From Leucothrix arctica (lineage in GTDB: Bacteria > Pseudomonadota > Gammaproteobacteria > Thiotrichales > Thiotrichaceae), in NCBI RefSeq assembly GCF_003172895.1, contig NZ_QGKL01000039.1, positions 124,001-188,000 of the forward strand: DNA of 64,000 nucleotides, given 5' to 3'. A program made the position numbers and the translations under genes. This document shows, piece after piece, positions 28,625 through 33,457 of the stretch. How positions within the stretch are numbered: the stretch's first letter is position 1; every line of letters begins with the position of its first letter. The notes below the pieces were generated by a model. That model searched no databases, was not told the DNA's origin, and saw only the letters and a program-made list of their open reading frames with translations.

Positions 28625-29629
28625 TTAAAAGCCAGCTAGTACAATCTTACCTTTTGACTTGCCTGACTCTAATAAAGCATGTGCTTTCATTAAGTTTTCC
28701 GCATTGATCTTACCAAAGTCACTTGCCACCGTCGTCGCTAGCGCACCAGCATCCATCATTCGTGCGACTTTAGATAAAAGCTTATGCTGCTCAATCATGT
28801 CATCTGTTTGGTATAACGATCGTGTGTACATAAACTCCCAATGTACAGAGACGCTTTTTGACTTAAATGGCATGATATCAAACGAAGCAGGGTCGTCTAT
28901 CAATGCAAACTTACCTTGTGGTGCAATGACGTCAACAATCGCTGGCATGTGCTGGTCAGTATGGGTGAGGCCGGCAATATAAGACACGCTATCAAAGCCT
29001 ATTGCTTTTAGCTCCTCGTTAAGCGGCTTGCTGTGATCAATAACGTAATCAGCGCCAGTCTGTTTAACCCACTCCTGTGTTTCAGGGCGAGAAGCTGTAC
29101 CTATGACGGTGAGCTTAGTTAGCTTCTTGGCAAGCTGAACCATGATAGATCCAACACCTCCTGATGCACCAATGACAAGTAGCTCGCCTGTACTGTCTGA
29201 ATTGAGTGCTAAACGATCAAATAACATCTCCCACGCTGTAATCGTCGTGAGTGGCATGGCTGCTGCTTGGACAAAGCTGAAAGAACTTGGCATTTTTGAC
29301 ACGATACGCTCATCAACAAGGTGATACTCCGCATTAGAGCCTGAACGATCAATTGCACCTGCGTACCAAACTTTATCACCTGCTTTGAATAGGGTGACGT
29401 CTTCACCGACAGACTCAACAACACCTGCGGCATCCCAGCCTAAAACTTTGTATTCACCCTCTGGCGGCTGAGCACGCATACGTATTTTAGTATCGACTGG
29501 GTTTACTGATACTGCGGCTACGCGCACTAGAATGTCTTTACCCGTTGCGACAGGTGTTGGTAACTCAATATCCAGCAATGCGTTTGGTGAGTCGATTGTC
29601 AGTGATTCTTGGTAGCCGATTGCTTTCAT
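28625..29629 (-). CDS. Zinc-type alcohol dehydrogenase-like (MDR superfamily) oxidoreductase
   Basis: 334 residues. The GroES-like N-terminal domain contains VAAVSVNPVDTKIR, and the NADP-binding region is LLVIGASGGVGSIMVQLAKKL. The catalytic and structural zinc Cys clusters of true alcohol dehydrogenases are missing, as in quinone-oxidoreductase-like MDR proteins. It probably reduces a quinone or enone with NADPH; the substrate is unknown. It converges on ugd and lies 22 bp after the Fic gene, so the two may share a transcript. Confidence 0.85.
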   Translation of the reverse strand: MKAIGYQESLTIDSPNALLDIELPTPVATGKDILVRVAAVSVNPVDTKIRMRAQPPEGEYKVLGWDAAGVVESVGEDVTLFKAGDKVWYAGAIDRSGSNAEYHLVDERIVSKMPSSFSFVQAAAMPLTTITAWEMLFDRLALNSDSTGELLVIGASGGVGSIMVQLAKKLTKLTVIGTASRPETQEWVKQTGADYVIDHSKPLNEELKAIGFDSVSYIAGLTHTDQHMPAIVDVIAPQGKFALIDDPASFDIMPFKSKSVSVHWEFMYTRSLYQTDDMIEQHKLLSKVARMMDAGALATTVASDFGKINAENLMKAHALLESGKSKGKIVLAGF

Positions 29630-29651
29630 GGTGTGTCCTTTGGAAGTTACG

Positions 29652-30641
29652 TTATCTTGGTAAAGTGGTTTTTCTGTACTTTTGTTTAGGGCTGCGTGGT
29701 GACTCAGGGTAACGCATCTCGATTAAACCTAACGCTAGGGTAGGGTTTAAGTAATTTTTGCGGAAACTGGTGCGATGGGTAAGTGATAATAGCTCCATCA
29801 TTTCAGGTACGCTCAAGTAGTCTTCAGTCAATGTCGCGAGTAGTATTTTTACTTGGTCACTTACTTGGTCACTGTCGGCAGCTATGTTCTGTCTGTTTTC
29901 CTGAAGCACACTATCAATTGCGTCGAGAATAAATTCAATAAAAGGCAGGCTATCGGTTACATCATCTGCTTTTTCTAAAGCATCGTAATATGCCTGCTGA
30001 CGGTCTTTGATTACACTTTCAAGCGGCAATAGAAAAAATATTGGTTTCCATTGCCCAAGTAATAGCGTCTGCCATAAACGCCCAATACGGCCATTACCAT
30101 CCATAAAAGGGTGAATGAATTCCAGCTCGTAATGTACGACACTACTAATAATCAGCGGGTGTTGATCTGACGTTTTTGCCCAGTCAAATAAATCAGCGAC
30201 CAAGTGAGGTACACGACCTGCGGGTGGGGCGATATGGACGACTTGCTTACCCTTATGTATACCAACACTTTTGTTTCTAAACTTTCCAGCATCGCTGAGA
30301 ATTTCTCTCATCAGCAAACCATGTGCTGCGAGAAAGTCTGCTTCACTACTAGCATCCCATTCGGTTAGCTTTTCATAAGCAGCAATTGCACCATGAACCT
30401 CGGCAATTTCCTTCGGCTCTCCAAGTACACTCTTACCATCTACAATTGCGGTGACTTGCTCCAGACTCAGCGTGTTGCCTTCAATTGCGAGTGTCCCCGC
30501 GATAGTTTTAATACGGTTTTGCTTTCGAAGCTGTGGTGAACTTTGCAAGTGTTCTTGGTTTATTTCGCCCAGCGCCTCACTAATGCTACTCACCAAATGA
30601 ATAACTTTTGCTGACAGAGTAAATGGAGGTTGGTATGGCAT
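29652..30641 (-). CDS. Fic family protein (probable AMPylating toxin-like enzyme)
   Basis: 329 residues. The catalytic Fic loop HPFMDGNGRIGR (177-188) is complete with His177. The inhibitory helix motif [ST]xxxE[GN] is present upstream at 50-55 (TLAIEG), so the enzyme should be autoinhibited, as in class II Fic proteins. The C-terminal ~70 residues (SDQVSDQVKILLATL onward, then LSLTHRTSFRKNY) form a winged-helix-like domain. Fic proteins usually transfer AMP to a hydroxyl of a target protein. The upstream region has palindromes that may be operators. Confidence 0.9.
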   Translation of the reverse strand: MPYQPPFTLSAKVIHLVSSISEALGEINQEHLQSSPQLRKQNRIKTIAGTLAIEGNTLSLEQVTAIVDGKSVLGEPKEIAEVHGAIAAYEKLTEWDASSEADFLAAHGLLMREILSDAGKFRNKSVGIHKGKQVVHIAPPAGRVPHLVADLFDWAKTSDQHPLIISSVVHYELEFIHPFMDGNGRIGRLWQTLLLGQWKPIFFLLPLESVIKDRQQAYYDALEKADDVTDSLPFIEFILDAIDSVLQENRQNIAADSDQVSDQVKILLATLTEDYLSVPEMMELLSLTHRTSFRKNYLNPTLALGLIEMRYPESPRSPKQKYRKTTLPR

Positions 30642-30795
30642 AACTAGGCCGCGTTGAGTGAGACTGATTAAGCATAATTATACTATAGTTTCTCACTTAT
30701 AGCGGAGTCTTCAGTGTTAGGGACTGTTAACGACTTTCAGTTATCTTTTGCGCTTAAACTTAAAATGTATAGACATACTCTAGCTATAAATGATT

Positions 30796-30811
30796 TGAAG
30801 TCTAGACTTCA
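30796..30811. promoter_or_regulatory. Perfect 16-bp palindrome between fic and the Phd/ParE pair
   Basis: TGAAGTCTAGACTTCA is its own reverse complement. It lies between divergent fic and the toxin-antitoxin genes. It is a likely dimer-binding operator for a regulator, perhaps the Fic winged helix or the Phd antitoxin; neither is shown. The rest of the 269-bp gap is A/T-rich, with a shared ACTATAGT word at 30682-30689 and 30876-30883. Confidence 0.5.
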
Positions 30812-30870
30812 TTTACTATGTATTATGGGTGTGATGTACACAATAGGCTATTTGATCTACTTGGTTTAAA

Positions 30871-30888
30871 GTGTCACTATAGTGATAC
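30871..30888. promoter_or_regulatory. Palindromic operator/promoter of the Phd/ParE pair
   Basis: GTGTCACTATAGTGATAC is a near-perfect inverted repeat with a perfect 12-bp core (30874-30885). A -10-like TATAGT lies in its centre (30878-30883), 23 bases before the antitoxin start. Toxin-antitoxin operons of this family are autorepressed at such sites. Confidence 0.6.
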
Positions 30889-30910
30889 TATTTAAGTAGA
30901 GGCAGGCCTT

Positions 30911-31168
30911 ATGAAAGTTGAACTTGTTACAACCTTGAAGCGGCAAGCAACAAGAATTCTCAGCGAACTTCAAGCTTCAAAAGAACCGGTGTTGATCACT
31001 GAGCACGGCCGACCATCTGCCTACCTAATTGATGTTGAAGACTATGAGTTTATGCAGCAACGCTTAGAGCTGCTAGAAGGTATTGCTCGTGGTGAAAAAG
31101 CGATTACGGAAGGAAGAACCCTCTCTAAAGAGAAAGCAAAAGAAAGAATGTCTAAATGGCTGAGCTAA
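30911..31168 (+). CDS. Antitoxin of the Phd/YefM family
   Basis: 85 residues. The N-terminal DNA-binding part (VTTLKRQATRILSELQASKEPVLITEHGRPSAYLIDVEDYE) fits Phd/YefM antitoxins and is quoted only in part here: the marker is EPVLITEHGRPSAYL. The C-terminal tail (LSKEKAKERMSKWL) would wrap the toxin. The gene overlaps the following toxin gene by 13 bases, has GAGGCAGG before the ATG, and follows a palindromic operator. Confidence 0.88.
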   Translation: MKVELVTTLKRQATRILSELQASKEPVLITEHGRPSAYLIDVEDYEFMQQRLELLEGIARGEKAITEGRTLSKEKAKERMSKWLS

Positions 31169-31458
31169 TTTGGACGGAGCCAGCCTTAGCCGATTTAGAT
31201 GAAATTGCAGACTACATTGCTTTAAGTAATTTGCCAGCCGCTAAAGAGTTAGTGGGACGAGTGTTTGGTACGGTAGATCGCTTAGAGCAGTTTCCTGAGT
31301 TAGGGCGTGTTCCGCCTGAGTTGGAAGGGTTTAGTTATCGAGAGGTGATAGTTAATCCTTGTCGAGTACTTTACAAGGTTGAGTCTGAAAGTGTGCTTAT
31401 TCTGCATGTTGTTAGGCAAGAGAGGGAGTTGAGGCGTTTTATTTCAGCTCGAGTGTGA
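31156..31458 (+). CDS. RelE/ParE family toxin
   Basis: 100 residues. LIWTEPALADLDEIADYIAL and the C-terminal REVIVNPCRVLYKVE plus VLILHVVRQERELRRF fit the RelE/ParE fold. The closest look is ParE-like: a long N-terminal helix pair and an Arg-rich end. ParE poisons gyrase, while RelE cuts mRNA on the ribosome; sequence alone leaves this open. It is translated from an overlap with the antitoxin gene. Confidence 0.85.
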   Translation: MAELIWTEPALADLDEIADYIALSNLPAAKELVGRVFGTVDRLEQFPELGRVPPELEGFSYREVIVNPCRVLYKVESESVLILHVVRQERELRRFISARV

Positions 31459-31553
31459 ATCTAATATAACGCTACTGGATAATAAATTATCATTTTCTTG
31501 TTTCTTTCCCTCATTTGTGGAATGATAATCGGAAAATGGTAACTGGTAGAAAT

Positions 31554-32234
31554 ATGCATTTATTTGAAAATAGTATTTTAAATGGTTTTATTGAAGAGCG
31601 AGAAGTTGATACAGAGTTAAATAAGCTGTTAGGTATTGATGATCAAGAAATTCTGGTTGAAGTTCTGAACAGAGCGATTGCTAAATGGCGTGGTGCTATT
31701 ACGCCCAACCATCCGGCAACAGCTAAAGGTGATGATTTTTATAACCACTCTGTAGTGGCTTTAAGGGAGATGTTAAAACCATTTGGTTTTGCTCCGTTGT
31801 CAAAAAGCAACGTTCAACTAACTATCAATAAGGAGAGAGGGGTTGCCATTTATTGCTGTAGAGGAGATGAAAGAATAGGTATATCAGAGGGGAAGCCAAG
31901 AACTTTAAGAGCTCGAGGAGATTGTACTTTGAACTTATTAGGCTTATCCGAAGATACTGACCCAACAAGTCTTGATCTTTTTCCAAGCGACCCTGAGTTG
32001 AGGCTAGCAGACTTTGATGTTTGGGTTCTTTTGACCTATATTGATCAAAGTGGTGGAAGATCTAGTTTTAGGGCTGAACTTTCACATCCCAAATCTCATA
32101 CGAAAGGCTTTATTAATTCTTTTGACAAAAGAATAATCTTAAATACAACGTCACGAGATGTAGTTGAGGAAAAGTCAGGTTCAGAAAGTTTCAATGATGC
32201 TATAGACTTCGACCTCCCCGAAAAGACAGCCTAA
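31554..32234 (+). CDS. Unknown protein, partner of the HTH-M78 peptidase
   Basis: 226 residues from the ATG at 31554, with GGTAG upstream. The frame extends to a TTG at 31515 and has another ATG at 31536, both with poorer sites. No domain is recognised. It is acidic and soluble, with a central Cys pair (AIYCCRGDERIG) and a strand-rich part (FDVWVLLTYIDQSGG, then FRAELSHPK). It is 5 bp from the HTH-M78 gene, so the two form one unit. By analogy with other HTH-M78 pairs it may be a toxin, an antitoxin or the peptidase substrate; this is inference. The base composition is A/T-rich. Confidence 0.65.
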   Translation: MHLFENSILNGFIEEREVDTELNKLLGIDDQEILVEVLNRAIAKWRGAITPNHPATAKGDDFYNHSVVALREMLKPFGFAPLSKSNVQLTINKERGVAIYCCRGDERIGISEGKPRTLRARGDCTLNLLGLSEDTDPTSLDLFPSDPELRLADFDVWVLLTYIDQSGGRSSFRAELSHPKSHTKGFINSFDKRIILNTTSRDVVEEKSGSESFNDAIDFDLPEKTA

Positions 32235-32239
32235 AGAAA

Positions 32240-33358
32240 ATGTTTAACAGTGAAAGATTGAAAATTGCTCGTGAGCGACGTGGTATGACTAAAAAGGCTT
32301 TGGCAGACGCAGCAGGTATTAGTTCTAGAACATTGTCGACTTTTGAGAATGCTGGTTATGGTACGCCTCCAGAAAGTGAAACACTGTCAAAGATCAGTCA
32401 GGCTTTATCTTATCCAGTAAATTTCTTTTTTTCTGATTCAGTTTATGAAATTGACCAGACAGGGATTAGTTTTAGAGCTATGAGCAAGTTGAGTGCAGCC
32501 AAAAAAAATGCGGCTGTTAGTGCCATTCCTATAGCTCTAGAAATCAATAAATGGATAGAAAACCGATTCAATCTCCCTGAGCCAAACTTAGAAGACTACA
32601 GCGCGGATTCCTACGCAGACCCTGAGAGCTCGGCACGAGATTTACGTGAGCGTTGGGGGCTGGGAGAGCTATCTATATCGAATATGGTGCACTTATTAGA
32701 GCTACATGGAATTAGAGTGTTTTCTCTGGCTGAAAATTGCCTTGAAGTTGATGCTTACTCCTTTTGGAGAGATGAGGTACCTTTTGTCTTTTTGAATACT
32801 ATGAAGACTCCCGAGCGTAGCAGGTTTGATGCAGCACATGAGTTAGGGCACTTAGTTTTGCATAAGCATTCTTCAAACCATGGCCGGCAAGCTGAGGAGC
32901 AGGCAGATAAGTTTGCATCGGCTTTTTTGATGCCGAGGAGTGCTGTGATTGCAGCTGTTCCTAATAGTCCCACGTTAAGTGAATTGATTGAATTGAAAAA
33001 GCGTTGGAAAGTATCACTCTCAGCATTGGTGAGGCGTTGTTTTGATTTAGGTTTGGCTTCGGAGTGGCACTATAGACAGCTTAGCATTGAGCTATCTGGA
33101 AAAGGTTATCGAAAGAGTGAACCAAATGGACTTAGAGATCGAGAAACATCTTTAGTCATCAAAAAAGTGCTCGAAAAGATTAAATCAAAAAGTCTCTCTA
33201 GGTCTAGTTTATTAAAAGAGCTAAATCTTCCTAGTGATGAAGTAAGTGCACTTACATTTAACAATATATTGTTTGATATGGAACTAGTTTCTAGTAATAA
33301 GAATAGTCCAAAAAGAAGCCAGCCAATCCCTTCTTTTTTAAAAGTAGTGGATAAGTAG
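32240..33358 (+). CDS. XRE-type HTH protein fused to ImmA/IrrE (M78) metallopeptidase
   Basis: 372 residues. An N-terminal helix-turn-helix (about 5-60, RLKIARERRGMTKKALADAAGI) is joined to an M78 peptidase with the zinc motif HELGH at 200-204 and a likely third ligand in the following EEQADKFASAFLMP. ImmA/IrrE peptidases cleave phage-type repressors or stress regulators. Two-gene HTH-M78 modules have also been reported as toxin-antitoxin defence systems. The C-terminal ~110 residues (about 260-372) are unassigned. It is the last gene of an accessory pocket before polA. Confidence 0.85.
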   Translation: MFNSERLKIARERRGMTKKALADAAGISSRTLSTFENAGYGTPPESETLSKISQALSYPVNFFFSDSVYEIDQTGISFRAMSKLSAAKKNAAVSAIPIALEINKWIENRFNLPEPNLEDYSADSYADPESSARDLRERWGLGELSISNMVHLLELHGIRVFSLAENCLEVDAYSFWRDEVPFVFLNTMKTPERSRFDAAHELGHLVLHKHSSNHGRQAEEQADKFASAFLMPRSAVIAAVPNSPTLSELIELKKRWKVSLSALVRRCFDLGLASEWHYRQLSIELSGKGYRKSEPNGLRDRETSLVIKKVLEKIKSKSLSRSSLLKELNLPSDEVSALTFNNILFDMELVSSNKNSPKRSQPIPSFLKVVDK

Positions 33359-33372
33359 GCCGCTTCTGAAAA

Positions 33373-33442
33373 GTATCAGGTGTTTACTTCGCGTAGACCT
33401 TCCGAGCAGAGCGAGGGGCGAAGCGAAGTGAATACCTGATAC
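33373..33442. repeat. Large inverted repeat between the HTH-M78 gene and polA
   Basis: The left arm 33373-33392 (starts GTATCAGGTG) and right arm 33423-33442 (ends ACCTGATAC) pair over 20 bp. The two non-Watson-Crick positions are G-U/U-G in plus-strand RNA. The loop is 30 bases and purine-rich, with GCGAAGCGAAG at its right side. No T run follows. It could stop both convergent genes, or be a dispersed REP/MITE-like element or island edge. Confidence 0.75.
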
Positions 33443-33457
33443 GACTAGGTTCGAAGC

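Follow-up and report, generated by a model that had tools for sequence, protein, structure and literature searches.

A RosmerTA gene pair of Leucothrix arctica with a conserved promoter palindrome and a predicted soluble toxin

A stretch of 64,000 nucleotides from the genome of Leucothrix arctica (hereafter the window) carries a gene for a 226-residue protein directly upstream of a gene for an HTH-M78 peptidase, which raises the question of what the first protein does beside such a partner. The first-pass annotation, made from the sequence alone, had described the two genes as 5 bp apart, and the ORF listing agrees: both reading frames are present on the same strand, with 5 bp from the rmrT stop codon to the rmrA start codon (Table 1). 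An in-frame TTG at position 31515 would extend the rmrT product to 239 residues. However, the ATG is the likelier start because the TTG resides within the conserved, operator-like palindrome and because homologues begin near the ATG. The pair is a sound, ordinary member of the RosmerTA systems, and the useful additions are its promoter palindrome and the predicted fold of its toxin.

The rmrT product matches the PADLOC RmrT model PDLC03935 (E 1.8e-41), and the rmrA product matches the RmrA model PDLC03949 (E 3e-145). The strength of both matches bears out the name RosmerTA, which had already been suggested. Every one of the 110 proteins in the toxin alignment also matches some PADLOC RmrT model, in a set of models that may partly reflect gene association. 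The earlier remark that the first protein lacks a known family holds for Pfam, NCBIfam and PHROGs, where profile searches with the RmrT family gave no match, and fails for PADLOC, where the family is RmrT. A search of the RmrT sequence profile against the PDB returned chance-level matches only, and none of the toxin's sequence relatives has a known function. Housekeeping families, a match to which would speak against the proposed module, were looked for and none fits. RosmerTA loci are recognized by an antitoxin with HTH and M78 (ImmA-like) domains, which Pfam and PADLOC detect here together with an intact HExxH motif, and by an adjoining toxin gene of the RmrT family, which is the PDLC03935 match 5 bp upstream of rmrA. 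The pair shares with RosmerTA the gene order, the HTH-M78 partner, the two-gene operon and matches to both profiles, and no architectural difference was found.

Linkage of the two genes was assessed in a sample led by RmrA, consisting of the best 80 loci from bacterial genomes and the best 80 from viral contigs. An RmrT homologue is located immediately upstream of RmrA in 158 of these 160 relatives, which are the closest RmrA matches, such that more distant RmrA proteins with other toxins fall outside the sample and orphan toxins (rmrT without rmrA) cannot be revealed by it. The genes are usually separated by less than 30 bp or overlap slightly, and the hosts include Pseudomonadota, Actinomycetota, Acidobacteriota, Gemmatimonadota and Nitrospirota, among others. 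Thus, the linkage in other genomes on which the first-pass annotation had made its proposal depend is near-complete, and the pairing of rmrT with rmrA is far beyond chance. RmrT is rare, with PDLC03935 matched in three of 369 genomes of the class, that of L. arctica included. Relatives also occur in 11 plasmid records and two phage-collection records, and an XRE/M78 gene is found directly downstream of every toxin match inspected among plasmid, phage and genome loci. Genome contigs searched with the toxin protein alone yielded no relatives; these came from the RmrA-led search.

A toxin-antitoxin pair predicts that broken toxins will be found beside intact partners, and this arrangement is present in three independent lineages. 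The only two of the 160 relatives that lack an upstream RmrT homologue (L115 and L116) are sister copies with an open rmrA, in which only the last residues of the toxin, PDIDIPLIRRA (the same as in L109), have escaped replacement. In another locus (L176), only the C-terminal third of the toxin is left and rmrA is open. Likewise, rmrT is frameshifted beside an open rmrA on the Pseudomonas aeruginosa plasmid pPA942-IMP45 (L014:2983-3622). Repeated breakage of the toxin while RmrA stays open fits a gene order of toxin first and antitoxin second. Among the three roles that had been considered for the first protein, namely toxin, antitoxin or substrate of the peptidase, this pattern and the RmrT assignment favour its being the toxin and the second protein the antitoxin, as judged from sequence.

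RmrA comprises an HTH domain at about residues 5-61 (matched over 7-61) and an M78 domain at residues 155-267 (Pfam HTH_3 and Peptidase_M78), with a zinc motif formed by H200-E201-xx-H204 plus a conserved E219. The HExxH motif is kept in all 160 RmrA relatives (best 80 per collection), and 15 aligned RmrA sequences show no variation at H200, E201, H204 or E219, which suggests that peptidase activity is probably under selection. Retention of the zinc motif is also consistent with an ImmA/ImmR-like or IrrE-like switch, rather than a toxin-antitoxin system, in which the HTH-M78 protein would have the first protein as its substrate, antirepressor or co-regulator; the cleavage of HTH repressors by M78 proteins, ImmA for example, is discussed in PMC2701414. 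However, the pocket holds neither an integrase gene nor a separate repressor gene, loss of RmrT with retention of RmrA has occurred repeatedly, and PADLOC assigns the pair to RosmerTA, such that a switch of this kind is improbable. Within the preferred toxin-antitoxin reading, ImmA-like cleavage of the HTH has been suggested as a means of regulation in Rosmer-like systems (PMC10440598).

An operator-like palindrome precedes rmrT and is imperfect, with 14 of 24 possible pairs formed. Regions upstream of homologous toxins carry the motif CTTGTTT-N5-CCTC-N4-GAGG with outer complementary arms, often followed by TATAAA. When up to three mismatches to the 15 fixed bases are permitted, this motif is found in 60 of 144 upstream regions versus approximately 0.1% of control windows. 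The Leucothrix site has one mismatch, and none of approximately 1440 control windows had one or fewer. Scoring that makes no use of the motif gives a similar picture, as 15 or more of the 22 possible pairs of a 44-bp palindrome are formed in 86 of 143 regions, compared to 2.1% of controls, and the axis is mostly situated 30-50 bp 5′ of the toxin start codon in these 143 upstream regions. Furthermore, the arms co-vary between subgroups of homologues, as expected for a site that is read by a symmetric repressor. In many homologues, the core of the palindrome sits between -35-like and -10-like boxes that are 17 bp apart, an arrangement in which binding by RmrA would block the promoter. A sigma-70 pattern scan upstream of rmrT found no consensus promoter, and the promoter reading for the Leucothrix operon therefore draws on its homologues. 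Most homologous operons have a long palindrome across the promoter of the toxin gene, which suggests that RmrA probably represses its own operon through this site, in the manner of type II toxin-antitoxin autoregulation. We found no description of the site in the literature searched.

Table 1. Positions of the gene pair, its upstream elements and the surrounding pocket in the 64,000-nucleotide window
Feature	Position	Strand	Remarks
variable pocket, ADH gene to polA	28625-33457		Fic, Phd/YefM-ParE, RosmerTA
Fic-family gene	29652-30641		Fic-like C-terminal domain; PADLOC SoFic E 2.7e-41
Phd/YefM antitoxin and ParE toxin genes	30911-31458		13-bp overlap; directly before rmrT
operator-like palindrome	31491-31538	.	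candidate RmrA site; outer arms CATTTTC (31491-31497) and GAAAATG (31532-31538)
-35-like TTGTTT	31498-31503	.	within operator-like palindrome
palindrome core CCTCATTTGTGG	31509-31520	.	centre 31514.5
rmrT	31554-32234	+	ATG to TAA, 226 aa; predicted toxin
rmrA	32240-33358	+	ATG to TAG, 372 aa; predicted HTH-M78 antitoxin/repressor

Together, these features make it very probable that the locus is a two-gene RosmerTA module in which RmrT is a soluble toxin and RmrA serves as both antitoxin and operon repressor, with freed RmrT causing abortive infection. RmrA, which combines HTH and M78 metallopeptidase domains, would neutralize RmrT and would keep the operon repressed by binding the promoter palindrome. 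Presumably, RmrA is removed or inactivated when a phage infects or some other disturbance occurs, whereupon free RmrT would stop the growth of the infected cell.

To evaluate how RmrT might act, its structure was predicted from 110 homologues with AF2 (pLDDT 88, pTM 0.82), and a model was also obtained for the L078 homologue (pLDDT 91.9). The RmrT model is a globular alpha/beta protein in which three helices are followed by three strands, a helix and three more strands. No membrane helix or hydrophobic segment is evident in RmrT, for which the highest 19-residue Kyte-Doolittle mean is 0.78. The toxin D5 of the Gordonia phage Kita system of the same name is predicted to be membrane-localized and depolarizes membranes (PMC10440598), whereas the Leucothrix protein lacks a membrane helix, and so the activity of RmrT need not equal that of D5. 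Moreover, gp34 of Gordonia phage Eyes, which is RmrA-linked but is not equated with the Kita toxin, has no detectable similarity to the family of Leucothrix RmrT. Despite the shared name, action of RmrT on the membrane in the manner of D5 is therefore quite unlikely.

Foldseek searches with both models returned nothing below E 0.014, and a BFVD search with RmrT gave no usable match. In VIA-align, NaeI ranks first for both RmrT (Z 7.5, 134 residues) and the L078 protein (Z 6.9, 130 residues), at an rmsd of 3.7. Next are chains of EcoRV, SfiI, SwaI, ThaI, Hjc, HincII, BglII, SSO0001, SPARDA and hantavirus endonuclease. These matches belong mostly to the PD-(D/E)XK superfamily, whose core fold is alpha-beta-beta-beta-alpha-beta, and have Z values of 4-7.5 and Foldseek E values above 0.01, but human Rep15 also appears (Z 5.5-6.2), and a Z below 8 can reflect a common arrangement and is not proof of kinship. 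The most conserved RmrT residues are E175 (100%), R193 (99%) and R71 (98%), followed by G122, P115, P179, S177, K121 and D105. In the superfamily, core strands 2 and 3 supply an acidic residue and the (D/E)xK motif. However, predicted strands 87-92 and 97-104 of RmrT carry neither a conserved acidic residue nor a conserved lysine, and the canonical (D/E)xK expected on the third strand is missing. Due to this absence and to the Z values below 8, RmrT is not filed in the PD-(D/E)XK superfamily.

Judging from these models, action on nucleic acids is the likeliest activity of RmrT, and our best guess, held tentatively, is a protein that acts on nucleic acids and has a restriction-endonuclease-like fold. 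More specifically, and as one version of the RosmerTA module favoured above, RmrT might possibly be a nuclease with a PD-(D/E)XK-like fold and a relocated or unusual active site, which would cut DNA or RNA once freed from RmrA; E175, S177, R193, R71, K121 and D105 are the candidate residues. With somewhat greater reserve, we suggest that the RmrT family as a whole might be composed of soluble toxins of this kind, with a non-canonical active site, whose antitoxin recognizes a promoter palindrome that is conserved across phyla. If so, a single type of HTH-M78 antitoxin would be paired, within RosmerTA, with toxins whose mechanisms are unrelated. The literature searched includes one RosmerTA toxin of known mechanism, which is membrane depolarization, and Leucothrix RmrT does not resemble a membrane protein; no description of toxic activity was found there for the RmrT subfamily to which it belongs. 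The confident predicted structure, the near-invariant E175, R193 and R71, and the conserved palindrome make the activity and regulation of RmrT directly testable.

Among known systems, the Kita RosmerTA pair (toxin D5, antitoxin D25) likewise has an HTH/ImmA-type antitoxin adjoining a toxin of no known family, and it is toxic and anti-phage (PMC10440598). Homologues from S. thermophilus are also anti-phage, with narrow activity (PMC12322248). Xre-COG2856 fusions (Makarova 2009, PMC2701414) similarly place an HTH-M78 protein beside a toxin gene, but the partner is a PIN or RelE toxin rather than RmrT. RmrA also matches the PADLOC capP model (7e-21), and the CapH and CapP proteins of CBASS carry the same HTH and M78 domains. 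However, these are two separate proteins encoded in CBASS operons, whereas RmrA is one fused protein with no adjoining CBASS gene. Elsewhere in the L. arctica genome (L188:1423-3025), there is a second HTH-M78 gene whose product is 29% identical to RmrA. It comes first and is followed by an overlapping gene for a 160-residue PIN-like protein, and by eye the two resemble an Xre-COG2856/PIN pair.

The first-pass annotation had placed the pair in an accessory pocket, and what lies between the ADH gene and polA indeed differs among genomes of the genus. In one congener (G004), ADH and polA occupy the same places with a GmrSD_N-HNH gene between them (L182:13989-15524). Another (G003, L183) has a DUF6414 gene beside polA, and in a third (G001, L185) a short contig has polA beside the tail of the ADH gene. 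The last was considered as a clean empty site and rejected, because polA lies next to only the tail of the ADH gene, which indicates a deletion rather than a proven empty site. Defence-like genes are abundant in this variable ADH-polA pocket. The neighbouring ORFs showed no integrase, and the window contains no tRNA. Between rmrA and polA (33372-33442) is an imperfect palindrome of approximately 70 bp, with two more copies in the genome that are 79-85% identical, and this is perhaps a REP-like element.
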